Assembly: GCA_018857735.1 (NCBI GenBank)
Contig: JABMCL010003549.1
Span: forward strand, 86,001 to 150,000
Source of the DNA: Alviniconcha marisindica
Taxonomy: Eukaryota > Mollusca > Gastropoda > Provannidae
DNA: 64,000 nt
Direction of reading: 5' to 3'
Below, piece after piece: positions 1 to 48,400 of this stretch (position 1 is its first letter; each line of letters opens with the position of its first letter). Under the pieces are notes generated by a model. The model did no database searches, was not told the origin of the DNA, and saw nothing but the letters and a program-made list of their open reading frames with translations. The position numbers and the translations under genes are program-made.

Positions 1-15
1 AGCAAGAAAGCCAAG
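1..15 (+). CDS. FANCI: FANCI exon end (tentative)
   Basis: Reads S-K-K-A-K followed by the donor GTGAGT, in the phase needed to join the next exon at 1697. Because the same 27 bases plus donor recur every 44 bp downstream, this may be either the genuine exon edge or the first visible copy of the array. Confidence 0.5.
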
Positions 16-3000
16 GTGAGTTTTTCACACATCTTTTCAAACTCGGCAAGAAAGCCAAGGTGAGTATTTCACACATCTTGTCAAACTCGGCAAGAAAGCC
101 AAGGTGAGTTTTTCACACATCTTGTCAAACTCGGCAAGAAAGCCAAGGTGAGTATTTCACACATCTTGTCAAACTCAGCAAGAAAGCCAAGGTGAGAATT
201 TCGCACATCTTGTCAAACTCGGCAAGAAAGCCAAGGTGGGTATTTTGCACATCTTGTCAAACTCGGCAAGAAAGCCAAGGTGAGAATTTCGCACATCTTG
301 TCAAATTCGGCAAGAAAGTCAGCTTTTGATTATTTTATCAGAGATCTTGTCAAACTTGACAAGAAAGCCAACTTATGGTTAGTATTAGAGATCTTGTCAA
401 ACTTGGCAAGAAAGCCAACTTTTGATTATTATTATCAGAGATCTTGTCAAACTCAACAAGAAAGCCAAGGTGAGTATTCTCAACACTTACATCTTGTGAA
501 ATTCATCAGGAAAGTCCAGTGAGTGTTTTCATTCTCAAACATCTTGTTAAACTCTACTCGGCAAGAAAACCAAGGCGAGCATTCTTGCCATTCTCAAAAG
601 TTAGATCAAACTCACCATGAAAGCCAAGGTTTCCAGCATTCTCAATAATCCATTAGATGAAAGGGTCATTTTCTGTAGTGATAGACTTAATAAGCCAGTA
701 GATGAAAGGGTGCTTTTCTATAGTGTCAAACTTAATCAGCCATTAGATGAAAGGGTCCTTTTCTATAGGGACATCAGGTGAAAGGGTTCTTTTCTGTAGC
801 GACAGACTTGTATCTGTTGTTTCCTTACAGGAAGTGTCTGCAGCTTAAGTTAAACTGTTCATAACTTTGGGGCAGTAAGGTCCATGTGCCCTTGGCTTCC
901 CATCATGTGCCCTTGGCTTCCCATCATGTGCCCTTGGCTTCCCATCATGTGCCCTTGGCTTCCCATCATGTGTCCTTGGCTTCCCATCATGTGCCCTTGG
1001 CTTCCTATCATGTTCCCTTGGCTTCCCATCAAAAAGTTTAGTGAAAGACAGATAATGACTCAAAGTTGTCACTGTTCCAGATCTTCTGCTTCTTTCCGTA
1101 TTGTCCACCATCATTGTTTTGACAATGGGCATTTTCTCTTTGTAATGGTTGAGTGGGTTGTTTGCCTGGATGTCTGGTATTTTAAAATCTTGACTGTGGT
1201 CAGTGTTGTCTGTACATTATCACAGTTTGTAAAATGAAACCCATGAGTTGTCATTTACCTGAATGTCAAGACTGTGGCTGTGCTGTGTCTAGCGGGAGTC
1301 TCTGGAGCACTTTTAGCTTGATGTTGTGTACCACTTTAACCTCAGCCATATGCAGGCTTTTCTTGTTGCAGTCCAACCCATGATATAAACTAACACTGTA
1401 ACAGTTTCTTTACTCAAACTCATTGGCATGGTGAAAAATCATTCAACACACACACACATACAAACATACGTCTATGTTCAAATCATCTTGCTCAGGATTT
1501 TATGCACAACACACACATGCACTAAACTTCTGTGTTCAAATTATCTTGTGCAGGATGTTACGCACAACACACACACACTAACTTACATGTGTTAAACTTG
1601 TCAGAGAAAAGAAATATGAACAGGAAATGGAAGCTCCCTTGTGCTTGAACTGCTGAAATTTTTCAAACCAATAACATGGCCATGGACATCTCTCAGGTGA
1701 ATCTGATGGAGAACATCAAGATGAGCAAGTCACGGGACTTCCGCATCAACGTTCAGATCGTGCAAGAGAGCTTGCAGGTGTCTTCTGATGACGACGAAGA
1801 GCAGGATGACGAAGATGATAACCAAGAGCAAAATGATGCTGGGGAGGCCTCACCAGAAGACGAACAGGTCAGCTGAAAATTGCCTTTGACTTTGAGTCGT
1901 GTCAAACAGGTTTGGTGGAATTCCAGACAAGAATCAATAGCTGTACTCGTCTGTTTTAGAGACTGTCACTCGTGACTTGAAAAGTGGTGATACTGTGTGT
2001 TGTCTGATTTAATTTCAGCATATAAAAAGCAAACTTATCAGTGATACGTATCTATTCTTCCCTCTTCCCCCACTTCCATACCCCCTTTCCCCCCCCCCCC
2101 CCCCCCCTCTCCCCGTCCCGAATAAGCCTTATGGTGTTTGTGGACATTAAGCACCATGTTTACTTAATGGTATGTATGCCTGTAACAAACACTCCGTGAT
2201 TTCTGGTATTGTGTCTTGTGTTGCCTAGGGCACCCCCAGTCGTTTATTGATTTGACTTATCATTGATTGGCATTGTCATTTTGGGGCATGTTTCTGTTCA
2301 GCATTTTGTGTTGATGGTTTTGCTCTGGTCTCTTTTTGTTTTGGTTTTGATGTTGTTTTGGGTTTCCAGTTAAAAGAAAAGCTGAATGGACCCTGGTGTC
2401 AAGATTTCCATAGGAGTATGTGTGCAGATGTCAGACACTGACAGTCATGCAGAGAACATGGACCCAATATGATTTGGCCTGCCTGGTGTGTGTATGTATG
2501 TGCAGGTGTCAGACACTGGCAGTGATGCAGAGAATATGGACCCAGTATGACTTGACCTGCCTGTTGTGTGTATGTCTCTGCAGATGTTGGACATTGGCAG
2601 TGATTCAGAGAACATGGACCCAGTATGACCTACCTGGTTTGTGTGTGTGTGCAGATGTCGGACACTGGCAGTGATTCAGAGAACATGGACCCAGTATGAC
2701 TTGACATGCCTTTTGTGTGTATGTGTGTGCAGATGTCAGACACTGGCAGTGATGCAGAGAACATGGACCCAGTATGACTTGACATGCCTTTTGTGTGTAT
2801 GTGTGCGCAGATGTCAGACACTGGCAGTGATGCAGAGAACATGGGCCCAATATGACTTGACATGCCTTTTGTGTGTATGTGTGTGCAGATGTCGGACATT
2901 GGCAGTGATGCAGAGAACATAGACCCAGTATGACGACATGCTTTTTGTGTGTATGTGTGTGCAGATGTCAGACACTGGCAGTGATGCAGAGAACATGGAC

Positions 3001-3322
3001 CCAGTATGACTTGACATGCCTTTTGTGTGTATGTGTGTGCAGATGTCAGACACTGGCAGTGATTCAGAGAACATGGACCCAGTATGACCTGCCTGTTGTG
3101 TGTATATCTATGCAGATGACAGACACCGGCAGTGATGCAGAGAACATCGACCCAGTATGACTTGATGTGCCTGGTGTGTGTATGTGTGTGCAGATGTCAG
3201 ACACTGGCAGTGATGCAGAGAACATGGACCCAGTGCCAGACAATACTGTGAGGGAGCCCCCCAAGGAACCGGAACCAGCCCCCAAGCGTCGCCGACTGGG
3301 CAAACTGCAGAGGGCAAAGTAG
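1..3322 (+). CDS. FANCI: FANCI, 3' end of gene (partial)
   Basis: Fanconi anaemia group I protein, partner of FANCD2 in the ID2 clamp that is mono-ubiquitinated at DNA interstrand cross-links; nuclear. Only the C-terminus is in the window: exon 1697-1867 (57 codons) and last exon 3194-3322 (42 codons plus stop), both phase 0. The block VNLMENIKMSKSRDFRI corresponds to the conserved VNLMQHMKLSTSRDFRI segment near the vertebrate FANCI C-terminus. It is followed, as in the family, by an acidic tail (SSDDDEEQDDEDD) and a basic end (PKRRRLGKLQRAK) that looks like a nuclear localisation signal. Bases 1-15 read SKKAK before GTGAG and match the preceding family segment LSKKSK, but that copy could be an array unit rather than the true exon end. 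The assignment comes from remembered family sequence; the rest of the gene lies upstream of the window. Confidence 0.85.
16..525 (+). repeat. Donor-spanning minisatellite, FANCI intron
   Basis: 44-bp unit: about 27 bases of exon end (L-V-K-L-G-K-K-A-K in the FANCI frame), the donor GTGAG and about 12 bases of intron. AAG/GT occurs at 16, 60, 104, 148, 192, 236 (GTGGG), 280 and 470; three intermediate units have lost the donor. Copies decay with distance, with remnants to about 640. Confidence 0.85.
526..1696 (+). other. Rest of FANCI intron
   Basis: Non-coding. Holds three or four imperfect copies of a unit with ATTAGATGAAAGGGT (about 650-810), a 21-bp minisatellite (884-1030) and scattered ACACAC runs at 1445-1585. 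No further exon recognised. Confidence 0.6.
884..1030. repeat. 21-bp minisatellite
   Basis: Seven near-identical copies of ATGTGCCCTTGGCTTCCCATC. The period is a multiple of three, so both strands stay open across it; this creates a spurious M-C-P-W-L-P-I reading frame. Lies in the FANCI intron. Confidence 0.9.
1697..1867 (+). CDS. FANCI: FANCI penultimate coding exon
   Basis: Acceptor CATCTCTCAG precedes 1697 and donor CAG/GTCAGC follows 1867. The 57 codons start VNLMENIKMSKSRDFRI and run into an Asp/Glu-rich tail ending ASPEDEQ. Phase 0 on both sides. The Met at 1676 lies in the intron, so it is not a start. Confidence 0.85.
1868..2427 (+). other. FANCI last intron, proximal part
   Basis: No coding signal. 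Contains a C-homopolymer at about 2087-2107, directly followed (2115-2160) by a copy of the dispersed AACCATAAGGCTTATTAGGGAC element in reverse orientation, then unique sequence up to the first unit of the acceptor array. Confidence 0.6.
2115..2160 (-). mobile_element. Core-element fragment, copy C
   Basis: CGTCCCGAATAAGCCTTATG, then GTGTTTGTGGACATTAAGCA, next to a C homopolymer. Reverse orientation. Confidence 0.5.
2411..3235 (+). repeat. Acceptor/mini-exon minisatellite, FANCI last intron
   Basis: Eleven units, with exon-type starts at 2428, 2506, 2584, 2655, 2733, 2811, 2889, 2965, 3043, 3115 and 3194; spacing is 71-79 bp, mostly 78. Each unit has a T/G-rich tract ending in CAG, then a 39-nt segment encoding MSDTGSDAENMDP or a close variant, then GTATGA. 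The segment is phase 0 and GTATGA could act as a donor; if it is read through it gives V-stop. The last unit is the real terminal exon. Confidence 0.9.
3194..3322 (+). CDS. FANCI: FANCI last coding exon
   Basis: Acceptor TGTGTGTGCAG precedes 3194; stop TAG at 3320-3322. Encodes 42 residues, MSDTGSDAENMDPV followed by a Pro/Glu-rich stretch and the basic end PKRRRLGKLQRAK. It is the final and only terminal-exon copy of an 11-unit array. The ten copies upstream have CCAGTATGA where this one has CCAGTGCCA, so only this copy continues past the PV codons. Confidence 0.85.
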   Translation: MSDTGSDAENMDPVPDNTVREPPKEPEPAPKRRRLGKLQRAK

Positions 3323-3945
3323 ACCACTCCTGCTGGGGTTTCCAGACAAAGCTCACATCCACCAAGGCCTGCCAAGACTCAGAATGGTGTATCAGCTGTA
3401 CTGTAGGCACAACATGCCGTTTGAAAAAGTGCATGATGCAGCAGGAAGTGACAGAAAGAAAGCAACAAATGTGTGGATGAGTTTAGAGAACTGTGCGAAA
3501 TGGTGCTGAACGGACTAGTGATCGGACTGACATAAGCAAAGCTTTGAACTATTGTTCTCTGCTCCACCTCCCCGCCCCCCACAACCACCTCCCCTGCAGG
3601 ATTATCCCCAAGGAATTATCATTCATTGGTTTTTGTGTGATAGATTATGCTTGATGGAGTGGAATACAATACAGGGGCTTTCCCCAACTTTCAGATGACA
3701 TCTTGACCACAGGGTGGGGAGGTCTGCTGTGGTAAAGATAGGTTTCAGTATATCGACACTACTCATGAACAAAACCGTTCATCACAAGACTGGCAACAGT
3801 CCTACACCTAATGGTGCTATTACTAACAACATTGTAATGCATTCAAAAGAGCAATACATCTTTTGTGTACATGTTGTGCAGTCTTCATGTCATCTGTGTG
3901 ATCAACTATCTTCAGAGCAATAAAATTAATATGAAAAAGGAACTT
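3323..3945 (+). other. FANCI: FANCI 3'UTR
   Basis: Unique, non-repetitive sequence between the TAG and an AATAAA hexamer. The last 20 or so bases after the hexamer are an estimate of the cleavage region. Confidence 0.6.
3919..3924 (+). promoter_or_regulatory. Poly(A) signal AATAAA of FANCI
   Basis: Canonical AATAAA about 600 bases after the FANCI stop, in AT-rich context followed by T-rich sequence. Confidence 0.6.
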
Positions 3946-5300
3946 TTCTTCTTGCTGTTGATTGCTTTTATATAGTGCTAGTCTCCACTCTCGAGCAGAC
4001 TCACTGCTTGCATGTGATTCTACATTAGTGAATAGCTTTTTATAGCACACTTTTGAATATCCGCTGAAGTGGTGTACTTATGGTGATGGCATGGCTGGTG
4101 CCGCATAAAACTGCTGCGGTCTCGGCGCGGTCTCTGTACACGATACAACCATGCACCATGTCGCTTCATGCAAAGACACACACGTGGTTGTATTATCTTG
4201 TATTACCAGTTTGTGTGAAACAGAAAACCTTATTTTCTGTAACTGGTAATCATCCCCAGCCTTCCTTTGGGATTGTTGGTGGTGGTGATGACAAAAGTGT
4301 CAATGGTGTGTGCATATTCCAGTAAAGTTATATATGCAAATTATCCTTCCATCTTATATATATTTGGCCATGTTAAACCTGTGCTTAATTGGGTGAACTG
4401 TTACAGTGTTAGTTCGCCAAACATACTTTGCAGAGTTCAACGAACTATAATTTGTTTCTTAATTGAGCTCAGATGAACTTTTAGTTCCCCGAACATGGTT
4501 CAGACAGTTCAACGAACTATACTTCATTTCTTAAGTGGCTTCTAATGAGATCCAAACTTGCGGCAGAAGCAAAGAAGACAGCATGATCCAAAATGTAGGC
4601 TGTTGGTCAGTTCCCTCCGAAGCGAATGAAGTATTGATACTGTCATCCATTTTTATTTTTGCTCTCTTTGCTCTCAACCAGTCAGAGGCAAGGTTTGCCA
4701 AACTGGGCGAATATTCCCAGAACATGTTGAGCAAAGCTTTTTGAACCCCAAACATAGCTTCATCACAGTTCGTCAAATACCTCGACCTAGGTTCACAAAG
4801 CAAAACTTTGCCCAATTAAGAATGGGCTTTACTACAGTTACTATGTGTACTTGCGTCTCCATCTTAGGGTTTCCAGGGCAGTTGTATGTGGGTTGCATTG
4901 CTGTGTAAATGCATTTGCACTTTTAGTTGATGCATTATCCTGGGTGGGAATTTTTTGTTTTTGTTTTGTTGGCATCACATGCAAATTTTCATTTATTCAA
5001 AAACAGTTGTAATTGACCAATGAGTGGAAAGGCAGATTTTCTTGCCACCTGACCTATTCAGTGGGCCTATTTCCAGAGCTATATGTTGGAGTTAGTCTTT
5101 AGTTACTTCTCTAAGCAGAGTGACTATCAACTGTATAACAAAATGGTATGTGTTGAAGAAATTCACTAGGTTTTTTTATGGCCGCACAGAGAGTATGTGC
5201 TGTGTCTGGCACTGTAAAAAAAAACTAAAAAAACAGCACGCACTTTAAGCTGTTCATATATTCAATCACTTGTACATAAAATAAACCACTGCAGGATGTA
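3946..5300. other. Intergenic region between FANCI and the TRIM-like gene
   Basis: Convergent intergenic spacer. Apart from the MITE at 4383-4825 I see only unique AT-rich sequence; no open frame here looks like a gene. Confidence 0.5.
4383..4825. mobile_element. MITE-like element, copy 1
   Basis: About 440 bp, bounded by CTTAATTGGG on the left and CCCAATTAAG on the right (inverted ends). It has internal imperfect repeats of GTTCAACGAACTAT and AACTTTTAGTTC. A second copy in the same orientation lies at about 41640-42182. No coding capacity, so a non-autonomous DNA transposon is inferred. Confidence 0.6.
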
Positions 5301-5330
5301 TTCAAAACTTTATTTTTGCAATTATCTTTT
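5300..5330 (-). promoter_or_regulatory. Candidate poly(A) signal for the TRIM-like gene
   Basis: TTTATT on the plus strand (AATAAA on minus) at about 5308. If used, the 3'UTR would be roughly 5.6 kb and hold all the tandem arrays between 5.7 and 10.9 kb. Not proven. Confidence 0.3.
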
Positions 5331-5744
5331 ACATCAAACAAATCTGCTCTCTTTACAGAAACTGAAAGACTAGTGTTGATTTTTGATTGGAAGAAATTGC
5401 CTGAGAAACATTGTAAATGAAACGATAATACACACACACACCAAACAAACAAAACAAGACAATGAAGGAACAAGCACAAAAAAGTGACTGTATGAAATAA
5501 ACTGAAACAAGAAAAACATTAAGGTTTTCTTAAACAAGAATGAGGTCCCAAAAAATTGGGAAACAAAAGAATTCTTTTTAACATATTTACAAGTACCAAA
5601 CAACATTGGAAAAAGTGATTAACAAAAGTTTATAACCAGTAATAAAGCAATGAGGCTGACCATGTTTCAAACTAAGTTATTCCACCACCCTCATACATCT
5701 CACTTGTCATTTTTAGCTTTAAACCTGACATTTTGCTCTTGCAC

Positions 5745-6345
5745 TGGACTTGTCCATCCTACCAAGCTCTTGTACTGGACTTGTCCGTCCTACTGAGCTC
5801 TTGCACTGGACTTGTCCGTCCTACTGAGCTCTTGTACTGGACTTGTCCGTCCTACTGAGCTCTTGTACACTGGACTGGTCTACCCTAATGCACTGTTGTA
5901 CCGGACTGGTCTACCCTAATGCGCTCTTGTACCGGACTGGTCTACCCTACTGAGCTCTTGTACTGGACTTGTCTGTCCTACTGAGCTCTTGTACTGGACT
6001 TGTCTGTCCTACTGAGCTCTTGTACTGGACTTGTCTGTCCTCCCGAGCTCTTTACTGGACTTGTCTGTCCTATGAGCTCTTGTACTGGACTTGTCTGTCC
6101 TACTGAGTTCTTGTACGGACTTGTCTGTCCTACTGAGCTCTTGTACTGGACTTGTCTGTCCTACTGAGCTCTTGTACTGGACTTGTCTGTCCTACTGAGC
6201 TCTTGTACTGGACTTGTCTGTCCTACTGAGCTCGTCTGCCAGACTTGTCCATCCTACTGAATCCTACTGAGCTCTCATAATGCACTTGCTATTATCCTTA
6301 TTACTGGACTTGTTCATCTTGCAGAGCTCTTGTACTGGACCTGTC
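5745..6345. repeat. Minisatellite, GAGCTCTTGTACTGGACTTG type
   Basis: About 20 copies of a roughly 29-bp unit containing GAGCTCTTGTACTGGACTTG and TCTGTCCTACT, with a diverged sub-block (CGGACTGGTCTACCCTAATG) at 5865-5950. Downstream of the TRIM-like stop codon. Confidence 0.9.
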
Positions 6346-6829
6346 TGTCCAGGGTACTGTCATGGCAGATCAACTGTTTACTAGACATGTTCAAAAGCTA
6401 TACCAAAAGGGTGCATTATAAACCTCAACAGAGTGCCAACAAAAAAAGAAGTTATTTGGATAAAGAAATTCACACCTCCCTTGAAGAAGTAAAAGTGCCA
6501 AACAAATTGTTCCAAACTATTTCAAACCAAAAAATGATCAAAAGCAAGGCTGCTGGCTGTCACCTGGTTTGGCTGTCACACCGGGTTGGGTTTTGACATC
6601 TCCAGTTAACACAATGCCATATCCATTCCACTAATAACACACACAAAAAGACAGAAAAGCATTAGTCCTATTCCACCCCTTGCCATTCATGCACCTGGAC
6701 CAATTCTGTAGCTCAGTCTTGGCCTCTTCCCAGGCAGCCTACACTGACAGTAATCTCAAGCCACCACCAGCTGCGTTCTTTAAACCACACCATGTTCCAG
6801 TTTCAGTACCAACTCCTCTACTGGGTCCA

Positions 6830-7610
6830 CAAGAGTGCCTCGTCAGTACTGCATACATCTTTCAGTACAGGAGTGCATGGACAATGCTAGATAGATGTCA
6901 ACACAGGAGTGCCTGGTCAATACTGCATACCTCTTTCGGTACAGGAGTGCATGTACAATGCTAGATAGATGTCAACACAGGAGTGCCTGGTCAATACTGC
7001 ATACCTCTTTCGGTACAGGAGTGCATGGACAATGCTAGATAGATGTCAACACAGGAGTGCCTGGTCAATATTGCATACCTCTTTCGGTACAGGAGTGCAT
7101 GGACAATGCTAGAGAGATGTCAACACAGGAATGCCTGGTCAATACTGCATACCTCTTTCGGTACAGGAGTGCATGGACAATGCTAGAAAGATGTCAACAC
7201 AGGAGTGCCTGGTCAATACTGTATACCTCTCGGTACAGGAGTGCATGGACAATGCTAGATAGATGTCAACACAGGAGTGCCTGGTCAATACTGTATACCT
7301 CTTTCGGTATAGGAGTGCATGGACAATGTTAGAAAGATGTCAACACAGGAGTGCCTGGTCAATACTGTATACATCTTTCGGTACAGGAGTACATGGACAA
7401 CGCTAGATAGGTGTCAACACAGGAGTGCCTGGTCAATGTCAACACAGGAGTGCCTGGTCAATACTGCATACCTCTTTCGGTACAGGAGTGCATGGACAAT
7501 GCTAGATAGATGTCAACACAGGAGTGCCTGGTCAATACTGCATACCTCTTTCGGTACAGGAGTGCATGGACAATGCTAGATAGATGTCAACACAGGAGTG
7601 CCTTTTACCA
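6830..7610. repeat. Minisatellite, GGTACAGGAGTGCATGGACA type
   Basis: About 11 copies of a roughly 67-bp unit combining GTCAACACAGGAGTGCCTGG, TCAATACTGCATACCTCTTT and GGTACAGGAGTGCATGGACA. A partial duplication lies near 7425-7445. Confidence 0.9.
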
Positions 7611-7965
7611 CAGGAGTGCATAATGAATGCAAGATACCCCAGATGGTCAATACTACATACCCTTTAAGCACAGGAGTGCATGGCCAATACTACATACCTC
7701 CTAAGCACAGGAGTGCATGGTCAGTACTACATACCACTTAAGCACAGAAGTGCATGGTCAATACCACATACCCCCTAAACACAGGAGTGCGTGGTCAATA
7801 CTACATACCCCCTAAGCACAGGAGTGCATTATCAATGCTACATCCCCTTTAAGCACAGGAGTGCATGGTCAATACAACATACCCCTTTCTAAAGAGGAAG
7901 GCACAGTCAGTGCTAGATACCCCTTTAAACACAGGAGTGCATACTCCACACCCCTTACAACAGGA
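7600..7965. repeat. Diverged repeat block related to the preceding array
   Basis: About nine degenerate units sharing AAGCACAGGAGTGCATGGTC and TACATACC with the 6830-7610 array. Looks like an older, shorter-period relative of it. Confidence 0.75.
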
Positions 7966-8024
7966 AAGTCTGGTTAGTTCTAGCTACCCTCTTCAACATA
8001 GCAGCTGAAGGCCAATAGCGCAAG

Positions 8025-9025: not shown

Positions 9026-9329
9026 TCCACTCCAGTCAGCTGTCTGTGCAAGCTATATCCAACATTTCAGAGGTTTTCATACAGATCCTCGTTTTCCTCA
9101 TGCATGTGAGGATAAATGACGTTTCACCCCAACAAGAGTTTCTGCCATTTCCCACCAAAGCTGTAGAAGTCTGTAACCATCCATGAGACGCACAACTAGA
9201 GCTCGTAGCAATGTCCTCCATTAAATAAGAACACTGTCCACCATTTATCAGAGGTTAACCAACACTAGAGCTTACTGCCATATTCTACATTTGACTAAAT
9301 GGAAATGAGAATACTACCCACCATTACTG

Positions 9330-9895: not shown

Positions 9896-9899
9896 ACAG

Positions 9900-11137: not shown

Positions 11138-14100
11138 CTGAAATACACACATGTAGGATCACTGAGAAAAGTCACAAAAATTAAGTATTCTTTACATCAG
11201 AAATGCCATTGACATTCTGCACTGTCAATAATTATAACAAGCAGTTGAGGAAACCTTTTTTTGTTAATTGACGAGAGTCACAGACAGTATAAGTTTATTT
11301 ATTTTTCAGTTTATCTGTAGCGTAACACATTCCATACCACCCCACCCTAACTTTTGCTCCTCTTAGCCCAATAATATTACTGGGGAAGCAATTTACTCAG
11401 AATTACTTGGCAGGATTTTTTTAAAAAGAATTATGTCCTCCCTTCTCTTATGCTCCTGAACCTTTTAGTCTTGCTACTCCCTGAAAACCTACCACCCAAT
11501 CTTCACTCATCACGCGCCTGTGGCTCTGGCCTGACTGTGTACCTGCACCCTGTGGTTCCTGCTGTCGGCAACCACCCAGTTTCCCATGCTGTCCACCGCC
11601 ACACCTGCTGGTTCATTCATCTCCCCGGGACGCTTGCCTCTCCGCCCCAGTGTTTTCAGCAGCTCCCCCCTCAGGCTGGTCAGGTACAGACAGCTCCGGC
11701 CTAAACATTCACCCGGCGAATTCAAAGCACAACACACAAAGATGTACTTTTTAACAAGAGCCCAGCTGTCTGTCGGACATCACTGGACAGAAACGATGTA
11801 ATATACCTACTCTGGTATTACCGTTTATTTCTGCCTTGCAGAGCAGGTATGTTTTCAAGACCAACAAAGAAAACTGACATGCACTTAAAAGACATCACAT
11901 AAATACAACTACCTGAACTGCCTAAATTAACTCTCACCTGGCATGTGAGTAAATACAAGTACATAAATTCCACCAAAGGTACATCCTCAAAGGTGAGGAC
12001 ATTTTCAAGATGAAGAGTAAAAGATGCACTACACAGGTGCAGACAGTCACGCAAATCTAAAATTGGCTCCATAAGCCATAAAAACAAAGTTGTTTTTTAT
12101 GTCGTCATTGGAAACAATGGACTGCCTTTAAATCTGACACAGGTGAACTCTGTCAGTGACAAGATTCTTGTTTTCTACATTCAGGATCTTTGACTGAACT
12201 GAGGCTAAATGTGCCAGAATTCAGTGGCCTTGAGTGAAGGGTTATTAACACAGAAACTGAAAACAAGAGTAAAGTTGTGTTTAAACTGACATGATCTTTC
12301 TTGACAAACATCTAGTCTGGTATCACAGGTTCCACTGCACATATGTCCATGGGTGCATGCAAGATGATGAACCAGGTCATGAAGAGTTTCTAGCTGCTTT
12401 TCAAACCTAACAAAAGGTAATACCTTGCTACCTTTTATTCTACACCTAGTTCACATATTCAATGTACAGGCATTTTTCCTCTGGATTCTGCTATCTGGAA
12501 CAAGATCAAATTTTCAGGAAATCCGGATTCAGGCAATCCACATGTACTTTGCTTATCCTGATCATTCCATATTTTTTTCTCTCTTTTATTTCTGCACTCG
12601 AAAATATAGTTCTGTATGCAATTTAAAAAGCACTTTAAGTCCAAGTATCCATTGGGGAATGTTTCTTTAGAAAACAAATTCTTAGTATTATGATATCTTC
12701 TTTTTAGTATTGTGATATGATCTGAAAGCTGACTCAGCATCTCTTACCCAGGTCACTGGTGAGGAGATCCTCTCCGTGCACTGCTAGGAAACGACATTTG
12801 GAGTCGTCATAGCGATTGCGCAGCGGCTGGTAGGGGTACGTGTCAATGGCCCCACTCTGCTGGAAAATGTGGATGCGAGCGTTTGAATACAGCGCATCCA
12901 CCACAACCAGCTGCCCTCCTTTGGTCATAGCAAGACCTGAAGCAGACCATCAGTCAAAGCAGTTAGTTTTAGTCAACAGGCCTGAAGCAGACCATCAGTC
13001 AAAGCAGTTAGTTTTAGTCAACAGGCCTGAAGCAGGTCGTCAGTCAAAGCAGTTAGTTTTAGTCAACAGGCCTGAAGCAGGTCGTCAGTCAAAGCAGTTA
13101 GTTTTAGTCAACAGGCCTGAAGCAGGTCGTCAGTCAAAGCAGTTAGTTTTAGTCAACAGGCCTGAAGCAGGTCGTCAGTCAAAGCAGTTAGTTTTAGTCA
13201 ACAGGCCTGAAGCAGGTCGTCAGTCAAAGCAGTTAGTTTTAGTCAACAGGCCTGAAGCAGGTCATCAGTCAAAGCAGTTAGTTTTAGTCAACAGGCCTGA
13301 AGCAGGTCGTCAGTCAAAGCAGTTAGTTTTAGTCAACAGGCCTGAAGCAGGTCGTCAGTCAAAGCAGTTAGTTTTAGTCAAAAGGCCTGAAGCAGGTCAT
13401 CAGTCAAAGCAGTTAGTTTTAGTCAACAGGCCTGAAGCAGGTCATCAGTCAAAGCTGTTGGTTTTAGTCAACAGGCCTGAAGCAGGTCATCAGTCAAAGC
13501 AGTTAGTTTTAGTCAACAGGCCTGAAGCAGATGATCAGTCAAAGCAGTTAGTTTTAGTCAACAGGCCTGAAGCAGGTCATCAGTCAAAAGCACTCAACAG
13601 AAACTATACAAAACTTAACTATGAAATTACAAAAGACAAAAAACAGAATGACTGCTAGCGTTCTAAAACAAGACCAAAAAAACACATAAAAGGTTTAAAA
13701 CACATGAATGGGATTAGCATGTTGTGTTTTGTCCTGATAAATAGCGTTCCTTTGAACCTTTTATGTGTTTGGATCTTAACTAAGAAATGTCCTCACAAGG
13801 GTTAATGATTCAACTGAGCCATCAGCTGCCTTTTGAATTCAACTGACTGTTGATTTTTGTCCCACCAGTAACTCATGGCTCACCCGAAGCTGGGTGTGAT
13901 TTTGCATACACAAATGTTTTCCTGCCATAAAAGCATGCATATATATCACATGCTACTTAGGCAACATGCTGACTTAAGAAGGATGTATATATTACATGTA
14001 ATATATATACAGTAAAAACATCCCCCTTAACCCTTTCATTGCCAGCAGCGCATGCAAAGTATACACCAGGAAACCAGCAGTGCAGAAGCACATTGCAGCT

Positions 14101-33822: not shown

Positions 33823-35968
33823 TTGATTGGTAGGCTGTTTCAAAGGCTGGTTCTTGTTGGTAGATTGTCAGGGTTATACTACTCATGACTGACAAAAGAA
33901 AAAGATGATTCTGTGCACAAAAACGCAAATGTAGCATGGAAAGTGTAATACCACAGTACCACTATTCTGCCAGTAGTACCCACACCCAGGAATAAAATCC
34001 TACGAGCTATTCCACCACCCGACTGCTGTACCCCTACTCTGCCCCTCGTACCCACACAGGGAATAAAACGCATTAACCTCAGAGCTATTCCATCGCCTGA
34101 CTGCTGTACCCCTATTCTGCCACTTGTACCCACACAGGAAATAAAATGCATTAATCTCAGAGCTACTCCATCGCCTGACTGCTGTACCCCTATTCTGCCC
34201 CTCGTACCCACACAGAGAATAAAATGCATTAATCTCAGAGCTACTCCATCATCTGACTGCTGTACCCCTATTCTGCCCCTCGTACCCACACAGAGAATAA
34301 AATGCATTAATCTCAGAGCTACTCCATCGCCTGACTGCTGTACCCCTATTCTGCCCCTCGTACCCACACAGGGAATCAAATGCATTCTCAGAGCTACTCC
34401 ATCGCCTGACTGCTGTACCCCTATTCCGCCCCTCGTACCCACACAGGGAATCAAATGCATTCTCAGAGCTACTCCATCGCCTGACTGCTGTACCCCTATT
34501 CCACCCCTCGTACCCACAAAGGGAATCAAATGCATTCTCAGAGCTACTCCATCGCCTGACTGTTGTACCCTCTGCTTCTCACAACCACACAGGGGAGCTA
34601 CTCTGCCTTCTGGTAGCTGTTGTACCTGCTCTACCTTTCACATCCACACAAGGAAATAAAACGTATTATCTCTAAGCTACTTGCCTTCTGGTAGCTGTTG
34701 TATCTACTCTAGACTACCTTTCACATCCACACAGGGGAATGAAATGTATTATCTTGGAGTTATTCCAGTGACCCAATTGATGTACCACATACTTTAACTT
34801 GTGCACTAACAGAGACTGAATGCGATCTGACAGAGCTACTCAGTCTTCCAATCCCTCTACCATCTACTTCACACCTTCCATCCACACAAAGGCAAAAAAC
34901 AACAAGAATGCAACAAACAAGCTTACCACCACATCCACAGTTCTACCATCTACTTCAGACCTTCCATCCACACAAAGGCAAAACACAGCAAAAATGCAAC
35001 AAACAAGCTTACCACCACATCCACAGAGAAGCAGGAAGGACATCCATGATGCCTTCTTCCTCAGCAGGTGGCAGCTCCCACTTGGGATGTGTCCGCTTTT
35101 CAGCATACTCAGGGTACAGGTAGTATCCCACATCTGTGACAGCAAACATTCTTTTCAGTACACTTGGGGGACTGGTAGTAACCCACATCTGACAGCAAAC
35201 ATTCTTTTCAGTACAGTTTGGGTACTGGTAGTAACCCACATCTGGCAGCAAACATGGTTTTCAGTACACTTGGGGTACAGGTAGTATCTCACATCTGTTT
35301 CAACAGTAAACATTGTCTTCAGTACACTTAGGGTACAGGTAGTATCTCACACCTGTTTCAACAGCAAACATTGTCTTCAGTACACTTGGGGTACAGGGTA
35401 GTATCTCATATCTGTCTCAACAGCAGTCTTCAGTACACCTGGGGTACTGGTGATAACCCACGGCTGTATCAACAGCAAACATTGTCTTCAGTACACTTGG
35501 GTACTGGTGGTAACCCACATCTGTACCAACAGCAAACATTGTCTTCAGTACACTTGGGGGTACTGGTAGTAACCTACATCTGTATCAACAGAAAAAAATG
35601 GCTTTAGAGGTGAGCAAAATCAAAAAGAGTTATTAACATCAGATTCAGTAATGGAAGAACAAATGGTAATTTAAAAAGTCTGATTGGCATAATTTAGTGT
35701 TACAAAACAGACAGTCATTACGTATTGCTTCATCTAAGTGCAACACGTGAAATTTATTCCTCTTATGTTCTTTCTGAATTTCCCAACACCAATAACTCTC
35801 TCTCTCTCTGTCTCTCTAGTGTTGCTGTGTGTCAACAGGGACAGATCTATTTAAATAAAAAGCCAACATGTACTTATATCTTTATCTTGAGTAATAAAGT
35901 ATTATCTTTCCTTATCTATTTCTCTCTTTCACTTTAAGTATCAAAGTTTTTAAGCTCTCTCTCTCTCT

Positions 35969-36001
<33 letters not shown>

Positions 36002-39000
36002 ACACACACACACACATGCACACATGGACACACACACACACACATGGACACACACACAAACACAAACACAGGCATGCACGCACACACACACACACATACA
36101 CACACACACACACACAGCGTATGCCCATAGCCCATTAATAAATGCATTATCTTACCAAAAGGATAATGATCATGCCAGATGGTGAGTGACTTGGTTGACA
36201 CGTCTGGATCATGTTCTGGATCGTGTAAACCTTCTGAATCTTCATTTTGACCCAGCAAGGGAATCTTCGGAGGCTTGTTCCCACCAAACAACGGTGTATG
36301 GAACCCTGCTACATAATTGAAACAAACAAGGAAAATGGACTTGCCAATACAAAAAATGACAAGCAGGAGCAAGTATACAACAGAGAATGGGAGAAAAGGT
36401 TAACAGCCTATACTGTTCTGGCACTGGTTTGGTAGACAAATAGTAAGCAACAGAATAAAAAACCAACCAAATAAGCATGAAAGTACCACAAAACTAGATG
36501 ACAATAAAAGCAAGATGCCATTGCACACACATACACACACACACACACACAGGTCTTCAGATGCTTTGCTAGGTCTTCAGATGCAGGGCTTGCCTTGTAA
36601 CTGTCACGCTCAGTGTCAAAATATAGACAGTCTTTCAATAGGAGGCATACACTGGCAACTACACAGTTATAAGATACAACACTAGGACTCTCAGTTCATA
36701 TGCAGTGACTCTCAGTCAGTATGCAGTGACCAGTTATGTGCAATGGAGGTTACAGCATACACACTAATGCTACTGCTAGAGCTAAGGTGCAGCATCCACA
36801 CTGATGCTACTGCTATTGCTAAGGTACAACATACATACCAGCGCTAAGATAGGGCCTCCACGTCACACGAGGAACAGGAGCCACTGCATCTTGACCCGGA
36901 GACTTGTTACGTATCCATGGTAACTCTTTGTCACAGCTGTCAGGATCAGGGTCTTGCTTCAGAACATAAAGCTGCCTCTTGTGTGTCCCTGAAATAATGG
37001 CAAGATTTAAACTTCATGTTCACATGATCATTTTCATTGCTTGTGTGACACTGACATGCCTTGGATGACCAGAGAGATAACTGATTCTTAATGGCAAGTC
37101 AGTCCACATGGTTACAGACCAGTCAGGCAACCTCTGAAACTGTTTCAAGGGTGATGATGTGCAAATTTCTGGAGAGGAGAGGGGAAATGCAGACTTTCCT
37201 GAATGCTTAATAGGAACCCGAGGTGAAAGCACAACTTGGCCTGAAAACAGAAAATGTGTTTGGAAGAATAACATATTAACCCACTTGGCCCCAGACCAGC
37301 CGCTGCCCTTTCGCTACGAAATCCCTTGAGAAGGGAAGTAACTGTGTCAAATGATCCCGGTATGCAACTTTAAAAATCAATAATAAACACCAAACAAAAG
37401 TTTCAGCTCACTTCGTATTTTTCCCAGTTTGCGAATACAGTGTGCTTGTATATCCAACAGGTTTTGTTTTATTTTCACTAAAAAATAAAAGCATTAATTA
37501 ATTAATTTGTTTAATCCCAAGTCAGAAATGTCCCCATCTGAATGTCAGGTTTTGGGGGGCCTATGGGGTAACCGACTTTCAAAATTTCCAGTTTGAATCT
37601 CCAAAGATGAAGCTCCGTGAGTATGTTAGGGTGCCCACAGTAAACGACTGAGCCAAATTTCAGTTCAAATCTGAAAGGATGAAGCTCTGATGCTAACAGT
37701 AGGGCTTTTGTTTATTTTCAGGCATCTATCGCGTGTCCACCTCGCAACTTTGAAAATTCACAGCATCTCTCAAACTTCACCGAACTTCGAACAAAGGACA
37801 TCACCGGAAGTAGTAAACAATAGCGGAAATGAGGCTACAAGTCTCACGAGAATCCCGTTCCTATTTGCATAAGCCGAGATGCTAGTATGGAGCGTCTGCT
37901 AGCCGGCTGCTACCGGGCGGTCTGGGGTTTCGCGGTAAGGCAAAAGAGTGGGCGGTGACAGGCGGTCTGAGGCCAAGTGCGTTAAGACTATGTAGTAATG
38001 ATCATTCTTCCAAACACTTGGAACAGACCCAAACTGAAACCAGATAAGTACATTTTCATTTTTTTACTGTTTAACTGTTCTTTTCTTGCTTGAAAAAAGG
38101 GCTTACCCCCAAAATTCCCACGTTTTGCATCATCATATTGAATTATTCTTCCTTTTAACCCTTTTATGTATTTGGATCTTATTAACTACTGAGTTAAGTG
38201 AGGACCTACCCAAATAAAGCACAGGTTCATCCCTGTTGCCCCGGAAGGGCTGGAAAGGGTGGGAGGAGGACAGGGAGGGCACAACCTTGCTGTCAAACAG
38301 GTTGATGCTCTCCAGCTTGCCACGGTGCAGTATCCATGCCTTGGCCACAGGACTCGCAAACTGAAACACACACAGAACACTGAACTGAAACGCACACAGA
38401 ACAGTGAACTGAAACACAGAACAGTGAACTGAAATACACACAGAACAATGAACTAAAACACACATAGAACAGTGAACTGAAAAATGCACAGAACAGTGAA
38501 CTGAAACACAAACAGAACAGTAAACTGAAACACACACATAACAATGGTCTGAAACACACACAGAACAATGAACTGAAACACACACAAAGAACAGTGAACT
38601 GAAACATAAACTGAAATACAAACAGAACAGTGAACTGAAATACAAACAAAACTGTGAACTGAAACACAAACATAACCACACAATTGCTACTGCACAATTT
38701 GTACAGAATCCACACTCTGAATGTGAAGATGAGTGTGGGCGGAAGACCATGACATGCATACAAGAACATATTGGGGTACCTTGTTGTGCATTTTAACTCG
38801 CAGTATCTGTAATCACACAGAGCTATGACTAACAGCCCATGTAGGCCCCGAGTACACATGCCAGGTGAGAGTTATCATAGGCGACTCGGGTCTTTATTGA
38901 TGTACTTGTATTACGTATTTCGAGCACTGATTAACTCCCTTGTGTGTTGATCCCGTGCACATCCATTTAGAATGAGACCTACCCTGTGACCATGCAAGGC

Positions 39001-40380: not shown

Positions 40381-40423
<43 letters not shown>

Positions 40424-42347
40424 GGAGATGGGTTGGAATGTGGGTAGATGGATGTGGTGCATGAGGAATACAATATCATGTTTTTATACTATTTTCACTG
40501 TTTTATGAAACATTATTGTGGATCTCGTAAAGCGCGGTGTGCTCATCCTTGTCAGTGAAATACAGCACCACAGAAATGGCAGCTATTGTCATTATTAAGC
40601 ACTCAGTGTTACTTCCATTATATAAGCATTCAGGGTACCTCCATTGTGTCAGTATTGTGCTAGTTCTGCTTTAATGTCAGTGCTCTGTTACCTCCAGGAA
40701 ACAAGTGTTCAGCGTTACCTCCATCATGTAAGTATTCAGGAATACCTCTGTTACTTAGTTAACTAATCAGTTACCTCCATAATCTTCTATTCCAGAAATA
40801 TTCACTGTTACCTCCATTACATAAATACTCAGAATTAGACTATTACCCCCAGCACATAAGTATTCAGTGTTCCCTCTACTAACTAACTATTCAGCGCTAC
40901 CTCCATTACCTAAGTACTCAGTTTCACCTGCTGGCTCTTGGCATGGTGCCTGTAAAGACCTCTGTTAAATACTAAATGGCGATTGAGAAGAAGAACAATG
41001 AAAACCACTGACACTTCTCCGGGCCTGAGTTGATGTCCACCTAAAGACCTCTGTTATAGTTTATACTGACATTGAAAACCACTGACTCATTTCTCCAGAC
41101 CTGAAATGACATCCACCTAAAGATCTCCATTATACTAATAATGAAAAGCACTGACTCACTTCTCTAGGCCTGAGTTGACGTCCATAGCACGGACAGTCTG
41201 CATGTTGCGTGTGATGACCAGCATATCCCCTTCCACGCTGCCCGCTTCACTCGTCTCTTTGCAGCCAACTGATGTGCACTGGTAGACCATCTGCAAGATC
41301 ACCTCCATGAGTGCTAGATCATCTGCAAGATCACCTCCATAAATGCTAGACCATCTGCAATATCACCTCCGTAAGTGCTAGACCCTCTGCAAGATCACCT
41401 TCATGAGTATTAGACCCTCTGCAAGATCACCTCTATGAGTGCTAGACTATCTGCAAGATCACCTCCATGACTGCTAGACTATCTGCAAGATCATCTCCAT
41501 GAGTGCTAGACCATGATTTTCAAGATCACTTCCATGAGAGCTCTAGTTCAGTGGAAATGGCTGTTCTATACTACAGCACAGACACATACAGAGGTTCACA
41601 CACTCATAACACAATACATACATAATATATACAGCAAACCTGGGCAAATGTTTGTTCGCCGAACATACTTCGGACAGTTCAACGAACTATGATTCGTTCC
41701 TTAATTGAACTTTTAGTTCGCCGAACATGGTTCGGACAGTCCAAACTTTACTTCGTTCTCAACTGGCTTGTAATGAGATGCAAGCTTCGGCCCGAACTTG
41801 CGGCAGACGCGCAGCAGACAGCATGATCAAAATGTAGGCTAAAGTCAAGTCAATATACTTTCATCATCCCTCACAGAGTAATTCAACTAACTACTATCTC
41901 ATTCTGGGTCTCCGAGACAAGGCTGCGCCTCCCACAAGTCAACAAATAAACAAATTCCCTCGAAGCGAGTGAGAACCCAGTGACAGTCATCACTTTTTAT
42001 TTTTATTTTTCTTCATCCACAGGAGAGCTCTGCTCTCAGCCAATCAGAGGCAATGATCGTCGAATAGGGCGAATGTTCCCAGAACATGTTGAGCAAAGCT
42101 TTTTGGACCCCGAATATAGCTTTGCCGAATACTTCCAACCAGGTTCGCGAAGAAACATTCACCCAATTAAAAACAGGCTTAAGACAATCAGAACAATATT
42201 ATATATATATAAATACACACACACACAGAATGGTCACACACTACACACGCACTCACATAAGCACACTTACAGGTACATGTACACACTACACACACACACT
42301 CACATAAGTACACTTACACAAGTTACAGGTACAGGTACATGTACATG

Positions 42348-42416
<69 letters not shown>

Positions 42417-45400
42417 GTTGTATTCACAATGTAAAATGAACATGAACCTCATACTTACACACAACAAACCAAGTAAGAGTAAAACTAAAGTACAAAAACT
42501 CGTAACAACAATAGTCTGATCATTCCTAACCTCTTCAAGTTTGTTTCCACTATACATGTAAATCAAATTCTATCTGAGGCTTTCATTAATTTCATACACC
42601 TGATTGTTTTCAACCAAATTTCCACCATTGGGGTGCTGGGCAACTAACTTTAAAAAATCTTGCCACACTCATGCTCATATCCTTCATGTGCTCGCCAAAG
42701 CAGTGGACTGAACGGCTACTTTACCTGCCCAGTTTTAATATCCACTCCATAGCTGCCCACCTCCTTCCCTCCCACCATGACGCAGTTGTCAGTGATGCGA
42801 ACAGATGAGGAGAGAAGGGACTCTGCCGTCATGGGTATTGCGTTCAAATCCTCTCCATTAAATTCATAGAGGCCACCATCTAGTGATGGAATCAGACGAG
42901 TCTGTAACCCATGTCTTTCAACCTGCAACAGGATCACACATTGATAATAAATGAACATGTAACTACTGTTTAAGTATATATTATATTATATATGAAGAAG
43001 AAAATACCAGTAATCACAAGCGATGCATTTAATATATATCTGCAGGAATATATATATAATGGGTCATTATGCTGAAAACTGGACCAAAGAGGGTGCCGCT
43101 TTCCCGATGAAATATTTTTTTTACAACAACATGAAACTTTTTAAACTACCACTATATTTCTGATATAATGTGTTTGGAGAAATAAGGGAAATGCCACAAT
43201 GGGTAAATGCATCATTATTTCTTGCGCTGTGAGCCTTTTTTGGTAAAAATCGCGACATTTTCATGCCTGCCATTTGTGACATGGCTTTGGGAAGGTTAGC
43301 TGGTCGCAGATATTTCCTTGGAATCTTTCATGATTGAATAAAAACAGGTTTCATGAGAAGAAGGAGGCCAGTTCTTACATACAAATGGTATTTACTGTGT
43401 GTTGCTTGCTATTAACAGCTCCAAACAAAGGAAAGATAATCAGTGTCTCGCACGTTACCATGGTGTCTTCTAAATGTGTATCACGATATTGTGACTTGTT
43501 CACATCGGAAACTAAAAAAAATGTATTTTTTTCATCAGCTTAGTAGATAACCACATTTCACCTTATTTTTAATGCTTGTTTTGATGACAAAGAGAATATA
43601 CGAAATAAATTACAGTCATTTCTTCAGGGGTGGTTACGTGGTGTCTTACAATGGTGTAACATGTGAGCATACAAAATAATTATTTCTGCTTATACCATTG
43701 ACTTTCAACCTACCCTAACTACCAGTCCACATCAGCTGACTTGCAGCAGCAACGTTTGACCTCTTTTTGCGCTGTCTGTGGTGTATTATTTTACTAGAAA
43801 AGGGAAAGCACTGTGGTGTCTTAAGGGGTGAGGGATTAACGCTCGTGACACATATTTGTTCCCACTCGACTGAGCATTTCTTTGCAACCTTTTGTAACCA
43901 AACTTGGTATTGAGGTGCACCACCATGAGCCGGAATTCAGCAAAAAAAATGGGATTCTAACTTCAAGGTCAAGGTCACAGTGTGGGCTTATATAATCAAA
44001 ATATGACAGTTTCTACATATCTTTTATTAGTTCTAAACCAGTGAGTCTTTTGCAACCAAACTCAATTTGAGTGTAGATCATAAGCAAATAAGTGTCCAGT
44101 GAAAATGTTGGATTGCTGTGTTCAAGGTCAATGTCACAGCCAAGTTAAAAGTTTTAGTTAATGTTAGTTTGGATGATATCTTATGCATCGCTGAACCATT
44201 TGTAACCAAACCCAGTATGATGAGGGCATCATTATAAGCCAGAGCGTCATATGTGAAAAATGGGTTTCTATCTTCAAGGTCAAGGTCACAGTAACTGAAT
44301 TTTGGTTCATACAATCAAATATGACTATTTCTATTATATGTTCTGAACTGCTGATTCTTTGGGGCGACCAACTTAGTTTGACAGTGCATGTTCATAAGCT
44401 GGAGTGTCTTGTGAAAAGGTTGCTTTGCTGTATTCAAGGTCAAGGTCACAGTGAAGGTTCTGAACTTCAGTGAATGTTTGCCCGAACAATATCTCTGATT
44501 GGTCAAACTTAGTATGGTGATGCATCATCATCAGCCAGAGTATCATTCAAAAATATCATTTTGCGATGTTCAAGGTCAAAGCCACAATCGTTTCTACTAG
44601 ATCTTCAGAAATACTGAAACTTTTGCAGTCCAAATTAGTTTGATGGTACATCATCACAAGACAGGGTAAGACACCATGAAAAAAAAATCTTGCTTTTACA
44701 CAGGGCGTGAGACATAGAATATGGCTTGGGGGACTGTGGACTAGATTGCTGCTACTCTTGGCTATCCCAATATCTAAAGCAGGGGTCAATACCGGTTCCA
44801 ATCAAGAAAATGTGGAAAGAACATTGCTTTTGTAATGAATATACCTGCTTATTAAGTTTTTTGGTCAATGGTTCAAGTGTGTTATTCTTATATATATCCT
44901 TTTGTACTTGTGATGATGTTCACATAACATGTGAGACAGATTACTAATTAAGTGGATTGGTTATTAACTTTAGAAAGCAAGAAACAAATATCCCTCTGAC
45001 ATGTATAATTTATATATACGGTTCAGACCAAGTTAGTGCAATGCATTCCCCCCCCCCCCCCCCCAACCCTCCTCCAAATTACTTTGGGGGAAAAAGAAGA
45101 AAAAAAAACTAAGGAAAAGAAATGTGTAATCTATTTCGTAAATGTCTGTACTCCGAAGAAGACATTTTAAACCAAAATCGTTAAAGAGGCCAGACAAAAA
45201 ACAAAAAAAATGTCAGAAGTGACAGATATTCCTTTATTAATTAGGAAATACTGTATAATAAAAAAGGCAAGAGCCAAACTGGCCACTAAGCTGACTCTAT
45301 TCATGCATTTCTGGTGTCTTCTGTAACACGCAAGACACTGACCTATGATGTAACATAATGAACAATTAACCAAGTTCCTGTCACCCTGTCAATTTATGTC

Positions 45401-48400
45401 TTACATTTATGAACACAAGAGATGTCAAGCTTTCATTCCCAAATAAAAGCATTAAAAAATTCACACTCTGAATTTTTACCCTCTATGTCACAATTTTGAC
45501 CAGTTTTCAGGAGAATGACCCAAATACTAGATTCTTCATTCCCTACTACATCAGGGGTCGTGCTGCCTTTTAGAGATTTGAGTCAACCAACGCGAAACAT
45601 TACGTCTTTTGCGTCAATGGCACGAAAAATGCGTACAGTATAACCTAGAATTAACGCACATTACAAAGCCAAAATGATGAAGTAACCTGACGTAACCGGT
45701 CTATAACGTGAACAGACGAAAATAGTAAAAAGAAGGTCTATGCATGCACAAAAAATGTGCTAACGTTCAGTAAATTTGCCAGTCAGAGAAAAGGTTTGAA
45801 CAGATCGGAACATCGTACATGGCATCATTTTCGAGGAAGAACTGCAGCAGACGATGTCGGCAAACCCAGTTCTCGTCTACCGTGGGATTTAGTAATGAGA
45901 TGAAGTTGAAGTTGAGACTGCCGCCATTTTCTCTCATTCGTATTCGGTGTTGACGTGTGTTTTGTTTTCAATTTCGTAGTCTTCTACCTTTGAATAAATT
46001 CTGATATTACATGCTGACAAAGTAGGCATACTGCTTGGTTCCAAATTCCATATCAGGGATCGTGTCCTCCATCGATTGACCGGAAAATATCACTGATCAG
46101 TTCGGCAAAATGTCTGACCAGTCTGATACGGGAACCAATCTTCTTCCAGATCTATATGGGTTTGTTAGAATTCGGTTTAAATTAACTGTTTTCTTTTTTC
46201 AGAAAAGTATGCAAATTTTATTCACAAACAGGGCGCTACCGATAATAAGGCACATGGATAAGATTTTAGGAAAAGTTTCACCGTCGCCCAATAGTCCAAA
46301 AATTATGGTAGCTTACGGGGAGTTACGCATTTATTTCGCTATCCAGATTCCGCCTTTCATTGACTGGATTTGAACGGCTGAGATGACACTGAGTTTGCAA
46401 GCAGATCTAGTGTTGAGTGACATGGCATCCACCAGTGAGGTATAACTTGTTTAATCGGTGTTGTCATTTTGTGTACGGTGACGCAGCGATGTGGCTAAAA
46501 TGCGTACGGCACCCGAAAAATGCAAGATTTACGCAAAATTTTGCAATGAGTGCAACCCCTGTACATCATTTGTTTTTCACACGATGTACATGTAGACTAC
46601 ACATAATCTGAAAAACAACTGATGTAGTATTAATTATTTATCATGATCAATAAAATAAACTGAACATGCTCAACATAAAATTCATTATGTAAAATTACTT
46701 CTTCTTTAAAAAATAAAAATATGAACTGTGTGTACTGCCTCAAGCCAAGCTCTACAGCCTGCAGTACTGTACCTGGATATTGGTATAAAATTAATTAATA
46801 CTATACCTGGGTGTTGGTATAAAACTAATTACTACTATACCTGGGTGTTGGTGCACAGTTAATTACTACTATACCTGGATGTTGATACAGTACTAGTTAC
46901 TACTATACCTGGATGTTGGTATAAAACTAATTACTACTATACCTGGATGTTGGTGCACAATTACTACTATACCTGGATATTGGTACAGTATTAGTTACTA
47001 CTATACCTGGATGTTGGTACACAACTAATTACTACTATAGCTGGATGTTGGTACAGTATTAGTTACTACTATACCTGGATGTTGGTACAGTACTAGTTAC
47101 TACTAAGTACTATACCTGGATGTTGGTACAGTACTAGTTACTACTAAGTACTATACCTGGATGTTGGTACAGTACTAGTTACTACTAAGTACTATACCTG
47201 GATGTTGGTACAGTACTAGTTGCTACTATACCTGGATGTTGGTACAGTACTAGTTAATACTATACCTGGATGTTGGTACAGTACTAGTTACTACTAAGTA
47301 CTATACCTGGATGTTGGTACAGTACTAGTTACTACTATCCCGGGATGTTGGTACAGTACTAGTTACTACTAAGTACTATACCTGGATGTTGGTACAGTAC
47401 TAGTTGCTACTATACCTGGATGTTGGTACAGTACTAGTTACTACTGTACCTGGATGTTGGTACAGTACTAGTTACTACTAAGTACTGTACCTGGATGTTG
47501 GTACAGTACTAGTTACTACTATACCTGGATGTTGGTATAGTACTACTACTAGTTACTACTGTACCTGGATGTTGGTACAGTACTAGTTACTACTAAGTAC
47601 TGTACCTGGATGTTGGTACAGTACTAGTTACTACTATACCTGGAGTTGGTATAGTACTACTACTAGTTACTACTGTACCTGGATGTTGGTACAGAAGCTA
47701 GTACTGTACCTGGATGTTGGTACAGTACTAGTTACTACTATACCTGGATGTTGGTATAGTACTACTACTAGTTACTACTGTACCTGGATGTTGGTGATGC
47801 TGGAAGAGAGCAGAGGACGGTCATCACCTCTGACTGACCACAGGATTTTACCATCAGTGCGCATGTCCAGGGCAGAAACTGACCCATCAATGGTGCTCAC
47901 CAGGAGAAGGAAGCTGTTCACACACAGCACGTTGTGCACACTGGTCACTTACACTAGTTACAGTCACATTTGACAATTTGTTTGCTATGATCATAAATTT
48001 AGGCATGCTACAACAAAAATGAATAAATGAATATGTGTAAATTTGGGTGCACAAAAAAAAAATCACGGTCACAGAATGTGAATGCAGTTATTAGATCATT
48101 ATCATACTTGATTAAGTTGATACTATAAAAACAACATTATAAACACAGTACATTTGTAAAAACCCAAAATTTGGGTGCACAAAAAAACATTCACAGTCAC
48201 AGAATGTGAATGCAGTAAAAACAACATTATAAACACAGTACATTTGTAAAACCCCAAAACGAAACAACAGCTAAACAGGATCAGAAACACTTCAAGAGGA
48301 GAAAGAGACAGATCTCTTTCTTCTCTCTTCTACAGGGGTCACAAACACTTTTTAGAACTTGCATGTATACAGCAAACATAGTGTCTTGAAAAAATGTGTC

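Follow-up and report, generated by a model that had tools for sequence, protein, structure and literature searches.

Minisatellites that straddle splice junctions in FANCI, PERK and kinase genes of the snail Alviniconcha marisindica

Why should tandem repeats in unrelated genes of one genome coincide with the edges of exons? The question is raised by a stretch of 64,000 nucleotides from the gastropod Alviniconcha marisindica (contig JABMCL010003549.1, positions C2505:86001-150000 in our numbering; hereafter the window), in which minisatellites lie on splice junctions of three genes, namely FANCI, PERK and a TRIM-like gene that we call the NHL gene. A preliminary description of this DNA listed eight such arrays, stated that they begin exactly at an exon edge, and took their outward direction into the intron as evidence of a recurrent mechanism. 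We examined these arrays together with exon edges elsewhere in the assembly, which comprises 818 Mb in 2806 contigs. The L-numbered stretches mentioned below are other pieces of the assembly, and L009 and L010 are the FANCI DNA to the left of the window.

Tandem Repeats Finder (TRF) called arrays at all eight places, and inspection of the sequences confirmed that each array repeats a splice junction; the true junction lies inside seven of them. The exon edge is not the exact starting point of the arrays; their units straddle it, with 1-41 exon bases within the array for the eight listed cases and 1-48 across the 17 straddled edges of the locus. The recurrence in unrelated genes is real, and junction arrays were found in FANCI, PERK, the NHL gene and kinase exons across the genome.

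Array ends, straddling and coverage at exon edges

We determined the positions of arrays relative to exon edges in two samples. The locus sample consisted of 76 edges of FANCI, PERK and the NHL gene, 75 of which were used in the coverage and straddling tests. One NHL acceptor was placed at 11675 in those tests and at 11700 in the end counts, and one NHL exon implied by the Littorina protein was not located, its two edges being absent from the counts. The kinase sample was drawn from 144 kinase matches across the genome, of which 69 were examined (25 + 44); the others were not fetched, or were excluded because they had a stop or a single-exon frame, and one match with a stop (L068) was retained. 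From these, 112 edges were picked by hand with the arrays in view, and a 113th, in L023, was added later. The 112 exclude the ambiguous ends in L014, L016, L023, L047, L058, L063 and L065, the matches L011 and L024, which have no clear edge, and L027, which is a second copy of L026. Kinase edges were also picked by rule (n = 120, sharing 108 of the 112, with one end lacking a passing site).

Exon-facing array ends were counted at -40..+20 of each edge, and the expectation was the density of ends at 80-640 bases. A comparison of array ends with random intron positions was the test suggested in the preliminary description, and the kinase edges, which that description did not choose, gave 14 ends at 113 edges against 3.75 expected (3.7-fold, P = 4e-5). 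The locus edges gave 19 ends at 76 edges against 3.95 expected (4.8-fold), or 21 ends at -60..+20 (60 bases inside to 20 outside), and the pooled samples gave 33 ends at 189 edges against 7.65 expected. The rule-picked kinase edges gave 13 ends at 120 edges against 3.96 expected (P = 2.5e-4), with a gene-bootstrap fold of 3.2 (1.6-5.6). FANCI is the extreme case, with 12 ends against 1.8 expected; 14 ends lie at -60..+20 of its 37 examined edges, 34 of which are outside the window. Straddled edges cluster by gene, and the Poisson P values are therefore too small and the bootstrap is safer. Kinase exons in L059 and L042 have arrays on both sides, and in L023 two exons are involved.

The excess of ends was greatest close to the edge. 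It was 2.8-fold at -40..-20, 6.7-fold at -20..0, 3.5-fold at 0..+20 and 2.0-fold at +20..+40, and fell to 1.4-fold at +40..+80 (2.0-fold in the kinase sample alone); the edge set used for the 20-base bins holds one NHL donor that was not located. No array end that points away from the exon lay between -40 and +80 of the edges. Donors and acceptors were affected alike, with 16 ends at 96 donors (4.35 expected) and 17 ends at 93 acceptors (3.22 expected), which indicates that the excess depends on where exons lie and not on a single splice signal.

Straddling was measured in two ways. The strict test, which uses the smallest good unit and a one-unit null, gave 10 straddled edges among 113 in the kinase sample against 3.9 expected (P = 0.002) and 17 among 75 in the locus sample against 3.2 expected, a value matched in 0 of 200,000 simulations; 11 of the straddled edges belong to FANCI. 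The loose test accepts multiples of the unit. For the kinase edges it showed no clear excess over matched points (9/112 against 8.5, or 7.5 at a higher score cut), and the expectation was 5.8 (5.3 at the higher score cut) with all points as the null. For the locus edges the loose count was 17/75 against 10.8 (matched) or 7.3 (locus-wide). Fewer edges lay inside arrays than expected from intron positions, both in the kinase sample (8/112 against 15.8-18.6) and in the locus sample (17/75 against 25.8). These results indicate an enrichment of array ends, but not of array coverage, at exon edges, and the four measures disagree in part.

Internal splice sites and the origin of the arrays

The 26 units compared gave no cross match with one another (blastn-short, E 1e-3), in agreement with the preliminary view that they are not one transposon. 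A single transposon or introner was ruled out as the source, since no unit resembles another. Copies diverge from their own consensus at ~7% of positions. The exon share of the unit had a mean of 0.29 (Kolmogorov-Smirnov P = 3e-4), some units being multiples, which lowers the share; the small value fits a cost of extra exon sequence, or breakpoints close to the edge. A preference for unit lengths in multiples of three was dropped from consideration, the unit lengths being ambiguous.

The splice sites in the copies other than the true one were examined in 26 straddling arrays, a set without the PERK exon 4 donor and the L042 donor, the latter being GT-rich and including no exon base. The L023 junction was taken as 3288 in this analysis, as 3291 in the strict straddling test, and as 3287 in the 20-base bins and the same-dinucleotide comparison. 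The GT or AG dinucleotide was intact in 184 of the 197 other copies. When scored with simple, generic matrices of our own, 172 of the 197 fell short of the true site by no more than 2 bits or exceeded it. Agreement with the consensus was found in 382 of 394 dinucleotide cells, compared with 9148 of 9843 cells in the remaining columns (Fisher P = 0.001) and 989 of 1083 for the identical dinucleotide elsewhere in the unit. An array-by-array rank test of dinucleotide conservation, made on the 16 arrays with at least three copies, gave P = 0.14. Internal splice sites escape purging.

The explanation that we favour, and regard as reasonably probable, is that the arrays belong with the junction-straddling minisatellites known in lancelets as mirages, that splicing and protein constraint act as a filter on ordinary minisatellite turnover, and that the arrays are confined at the edges. 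When a short stretch across a junction is duplicated in tandem, the mRNA would stay the same provided that the copy beside the exon body is used, which would be the first copy for a donor and the last for an acceptor. The remaining copies would be intron and could expand like the ordinary minisatellites of a repeat-rich genome. Arrays that add units to the coding sequence would be eliminated by selection, and array ends would therefore gather at edges, at donors and acceptors alike. Judged from the sequence, the exon-proximal site is presumably the sole site in use. The outward polarity arises because the used copy defines the rest as intron, and it has no value as evidence of a mechanism; it is built in, as a junction-spanning array that leaves the protein intact must sit on the intron side of the used site.

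The size of the excess bears on this explanation. The ends found at edges (14 at 113 kinase edges; 21 at 76 locus edges) do not exceed the arrays that would cover such edges by chance (15.8-18.6 of 112; 25.8 of 75), and FANCI behaves likewise, with 14 ends near 37 edges against 18.8 covered edges expected. Confinement may therefore be sufficient in size, and we infer that the excess is due to confinement of arrays at edges and not to a mutational hot spot. Several points weigh on the other side. With uniform tandem duplication alone, ends should not spike at edges, and a 3-5-fold spike was seen. Confinement would require array ends that move, which is an assumption here. Furthermore, the unused copies hold GT or AG slightly better than the other columns, which pure neutrality does not predict.

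A serious rival to confinement is a birth hot spot, in which exon-intron borders would themselves tend to duplicate in tandem, for instance where the replication or repair of transcribed borders goes wrong, and would give rise to arrays several-fold more often than introns do. The spike of array ends at -40..+20 in both samples is in its favour, and under a fixed-end seed model the strict test gives an excess of 2.6-fold for the kinase edges and 5.3-fold for the locus edges. However, array coverage at edges is below that in introns, donors and acceptors are equally affected despite their different sequence and chromatin, and the units have no common motif. We regard a birth hot spot as possible but doubtful.

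A broader proposal, that borders are genome-wide birth hot spots whatever the local sequence and that ladders of up to ~28 intact sites are also weakly selected and active in splicing, appears unlikely. Selection for multiplied splice sites, in which ladders are kept for improving or regulating splicing, seems to us improbable. The proportion of intact and high-scoring copies given above and the lower variability of the dinucleotide are what it would predict, but the rank test on separate arrays gave no clear support, homogenisation of an array can also yield conservation, and arrays occur at some edges and are absent at neighbouring edges of the same gene.

Arrays fill 15-27% of such repeat-rich DNA, so that some edges would lie inside them by chance. 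The loose straddling count of the kinase edges and the edge coverage, which is not raised, are consistent with chance, but array ends and strict straddling are up in both samples, the ends also with rule-picked edges, and we consider chance alone very improbable. A mobile element of the introner type or an assembly artefact is scarcely credible, as we found no point in support of either (the haplotype comparison described below covers part of the arrays), the units are mutually unrelated, the divergence of the copies is unlike that of false copies, and the pattern recurs across many contigs.

Genes and arrays of the locus

The gene models of FANCI and PERK are firm on the sequence, with junctions fixed by frame and homology. 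The spliced FANCI model has 19 exons and 853 codons, its single stop being the terminal one, and the spliced PERK model has 16 exons and 1064 codons without a stop. The nearest named proteins are those of Babylonia areolata and Littorina saxatilis, at 77 and 76% for FANCI and at 63 and 61% for PERK; the two models also match solved structures of FANCI (E 9e-142) and PERK (E 1e-43), respectively. When the models were aligned with the Babylonia and Littorina orthologs, most of the 33 junctions were gap-free within 8 residues. Gaps of 1-4 residues occurred at FANCI junctions 9/10, 16/17 and 18/19 and PERK junctions 8/9, 11/12 and 12/13 (numbering of our script), and no gap near the 33 junctions equals the size of a repeat unit. 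One FANCI intron has a GC donor (GCAAGT, L010:5073), which both the reading frame and the alignment with orthologs support. The long exon of the NHL gene is nearest to proteins of Littorina (41%) and Nucella lapillus (39%), both with the NHL-repeat family PF01436. Taken together, the nearest proteins of the three genes indicate that the host most probably belongs to the caenogastropods. Predicted proteins of Batillaria attramentaria that match FANCI and PERK are numbered near each other (BaRGS_004957 and BaRGS_004959), and the order FANCI-PERK seen at 1-47913 of the window may be conserved among snails, to judge from this numbering.

The junction arrays of the window are summarized in Table 1. 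Of the eight arrays in the preliminary description, seven contain the authentic junction. The exception is position 16 of FANCI, an internal copy that was mistaken for the donor; the array starts to the left of the window, and the true donor is 176 bases leftward, its first intron base being L010:9840 (window -160). The list of eight was also incomplete, as many more arrays lie in FANCI to the left of the window and a degenerate one lies at the PERK exon 4 donor, where it was missed by the straddling test.

Table 1. Junction arrays of FANCI, PERK and the NHL gene in the window
Array	Position	Strand	Unit	Copies	Exon bases	Junction
FANCI donor, in-window part	2..478	+	44 bp (30 exon + 14 intron bases)			L010:9839/9840 (window -161/-160)
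FANCI last-exon acceptor	2419..3234	+	78 bp	~10.6	41	3193/3194
NHL (TRIM-like) gene acceptor	12936..13588	-	45 bp	~14.5	1	first exon base 12936
PERK exon 10 donor	34856..35026	-	86 bp	2	14	first intron base 35012
PERK exon 10 acceptor	35112..35595	-	~53 bp	~8.7	22	first exon base 35133
PERK exon 7 acceptor	38359..38676	-	~24 bp		2	first exon base 38360
PERK exon 4 donor, degenerate	40995..41182 (by eye; TRF 40995-41134)	-	exon end + donor	2-3		first intron base 41159
PERK exon 4 acceptor	41283..41542	-	32 bp	~8	8	first exon base 41290
PERK exon 2 donor	46765..47795	-	~34 bp	~28.6	12	first intron base 47783

FANCI (window -19773 to 3330) is very rich in minisatellites, arrays making up 41% of L009 and 47% of L010. 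The first FANCI acceptor in L009 carries another degenerate junction array, seen by eye and uncounted by the test. Arrays are mostly away from edges: the 68 kb of C2505:66001-134000 contain 58 arrays with a score of 60 or more, and for 21 of these an end falls close to an edge of the locus sample.

Other repeats were observed in the window. A 339-bp block occurs twice in tandem at 58383-59060 with 99% matches and represents a recent duplication. Three adjoining minisatellites with units of 25, 34 and 32 bp lie at 56342-57894, and the 34-bp and 25-bp units share GTCTGTCCA. Stretches around GTTCGGCGAAC and TTAATTGGGTGAA look alike by eye at ~41640-42150 (- strand), at ~4380-4800 (+ strand) and in L045 beside donor 2006, which suggests a dispersed repeat of this genome. 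At 43900-44800 (- strand) TGACCTTGACCTTGAA or near variants were seen several times by eye, perhaps as a degenerate old repeat. A search of a phage collection gave no match.

Comparison with known junction repeats

In lancelets, tandem units that lie over donor or acceptor junctions, called mirages, are described for the globin genes BflGb6 and BflGb9, and regular splicing is reported for the globin and Adh mirages in the part of the paper available to us (PMC3087553). As far as the same part goes, those units span junctions, vary in length by gene and carry splice signals in many units, as do the units described here (PMC3087553). In the snail, units with both exon and intron bases straddle 17 of 75 locus and 10 of 113 kinase edges, 5' and 3' boundaries are both affected, with the donor and acceptor counts given above, and splice signals occur in many but not all units (184/197). 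The snail arrays differ from the lancelet mirages in that they occur in a gastropod mollusc, reach ~28 copies and affect many junctions of one gene; the excess here was measured against intron positions, and the arrays are known from genome sequence alone. Sequence shared among copies at different places, as in introners, was absent from the 26 units.

In the lancelet PGBD5 gene, repeats of 60 bp and 108 bp lie at splice sites of exons 3 and 4, according to the available part of one report, which also cites a further case in troponin C (PMC3902484). The PGBD5 repeats abut or overlap splice sites, as the snail arrays do, and their copy number varies between two assembly versions; unlike the snail arrays, they have 2-7 copies, and one gene annotation reads them as an exon, according to the text available (PMC3902484). 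In the snail, the haplotig-like contigs L026 and L027 carry the same kinase exon and are 97.4% identical across the 5 kb that surrounds it, and arrays in them measure 131 and 105 bp, and 390 and 315 bp, respectively; these arrays lie away from exon edges.

The creation of introns from tandem arrays or internal duplications was reportedly treated by Zhuo in 2007 and by Gao and Lynch in 2009. For human internal tandem repeats in segmental duplications, the available part of one study states that minisatellites at a boundary between exon and intron may give rise to new introns (PMC2812944). As far as such sources could be consulted, minisatellite-type units at a boundary can turn into intron, as in the snail. 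Those cases concern new introns; in the snail the junctions are consistent with the ortholog proteins, and we do not propose that any intron is new. In human TERT, the intronic minisatellite VNTR6-1 varies in length and affects splicing (PMC11830802). Unlike the snail arrays it is ~3.5 kb away from the exon, its reported action is via G-quadruplexes, and the part of the paper at hand describes no splice-site repeat (PMC11830802).

Junction-spanning minisatellites thus appear not to be restricted to lancelets; in a mollusc they are dense, occur in unrelated genes and show a measurable excess of ends at edges. A row of 10-28 near-identical splice sites offers a natural test of the way in which the spliceosome chooses the exon-proximal site, and junction arrays might supply the material from which junctions shift and new introns form. 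They are also an annotation hazard, since internal copies resemble perfect sites, and the FANCI donor was misplaced in that way. Among the matches listed in the openly licensed literature, we found no junction arrays of molluscs and no excess tested against intron positions, a negative that carries little weight. Within the reach of these searches, the snail arrays represent a known kind of pattern in a new phylum and at an unusually high density.

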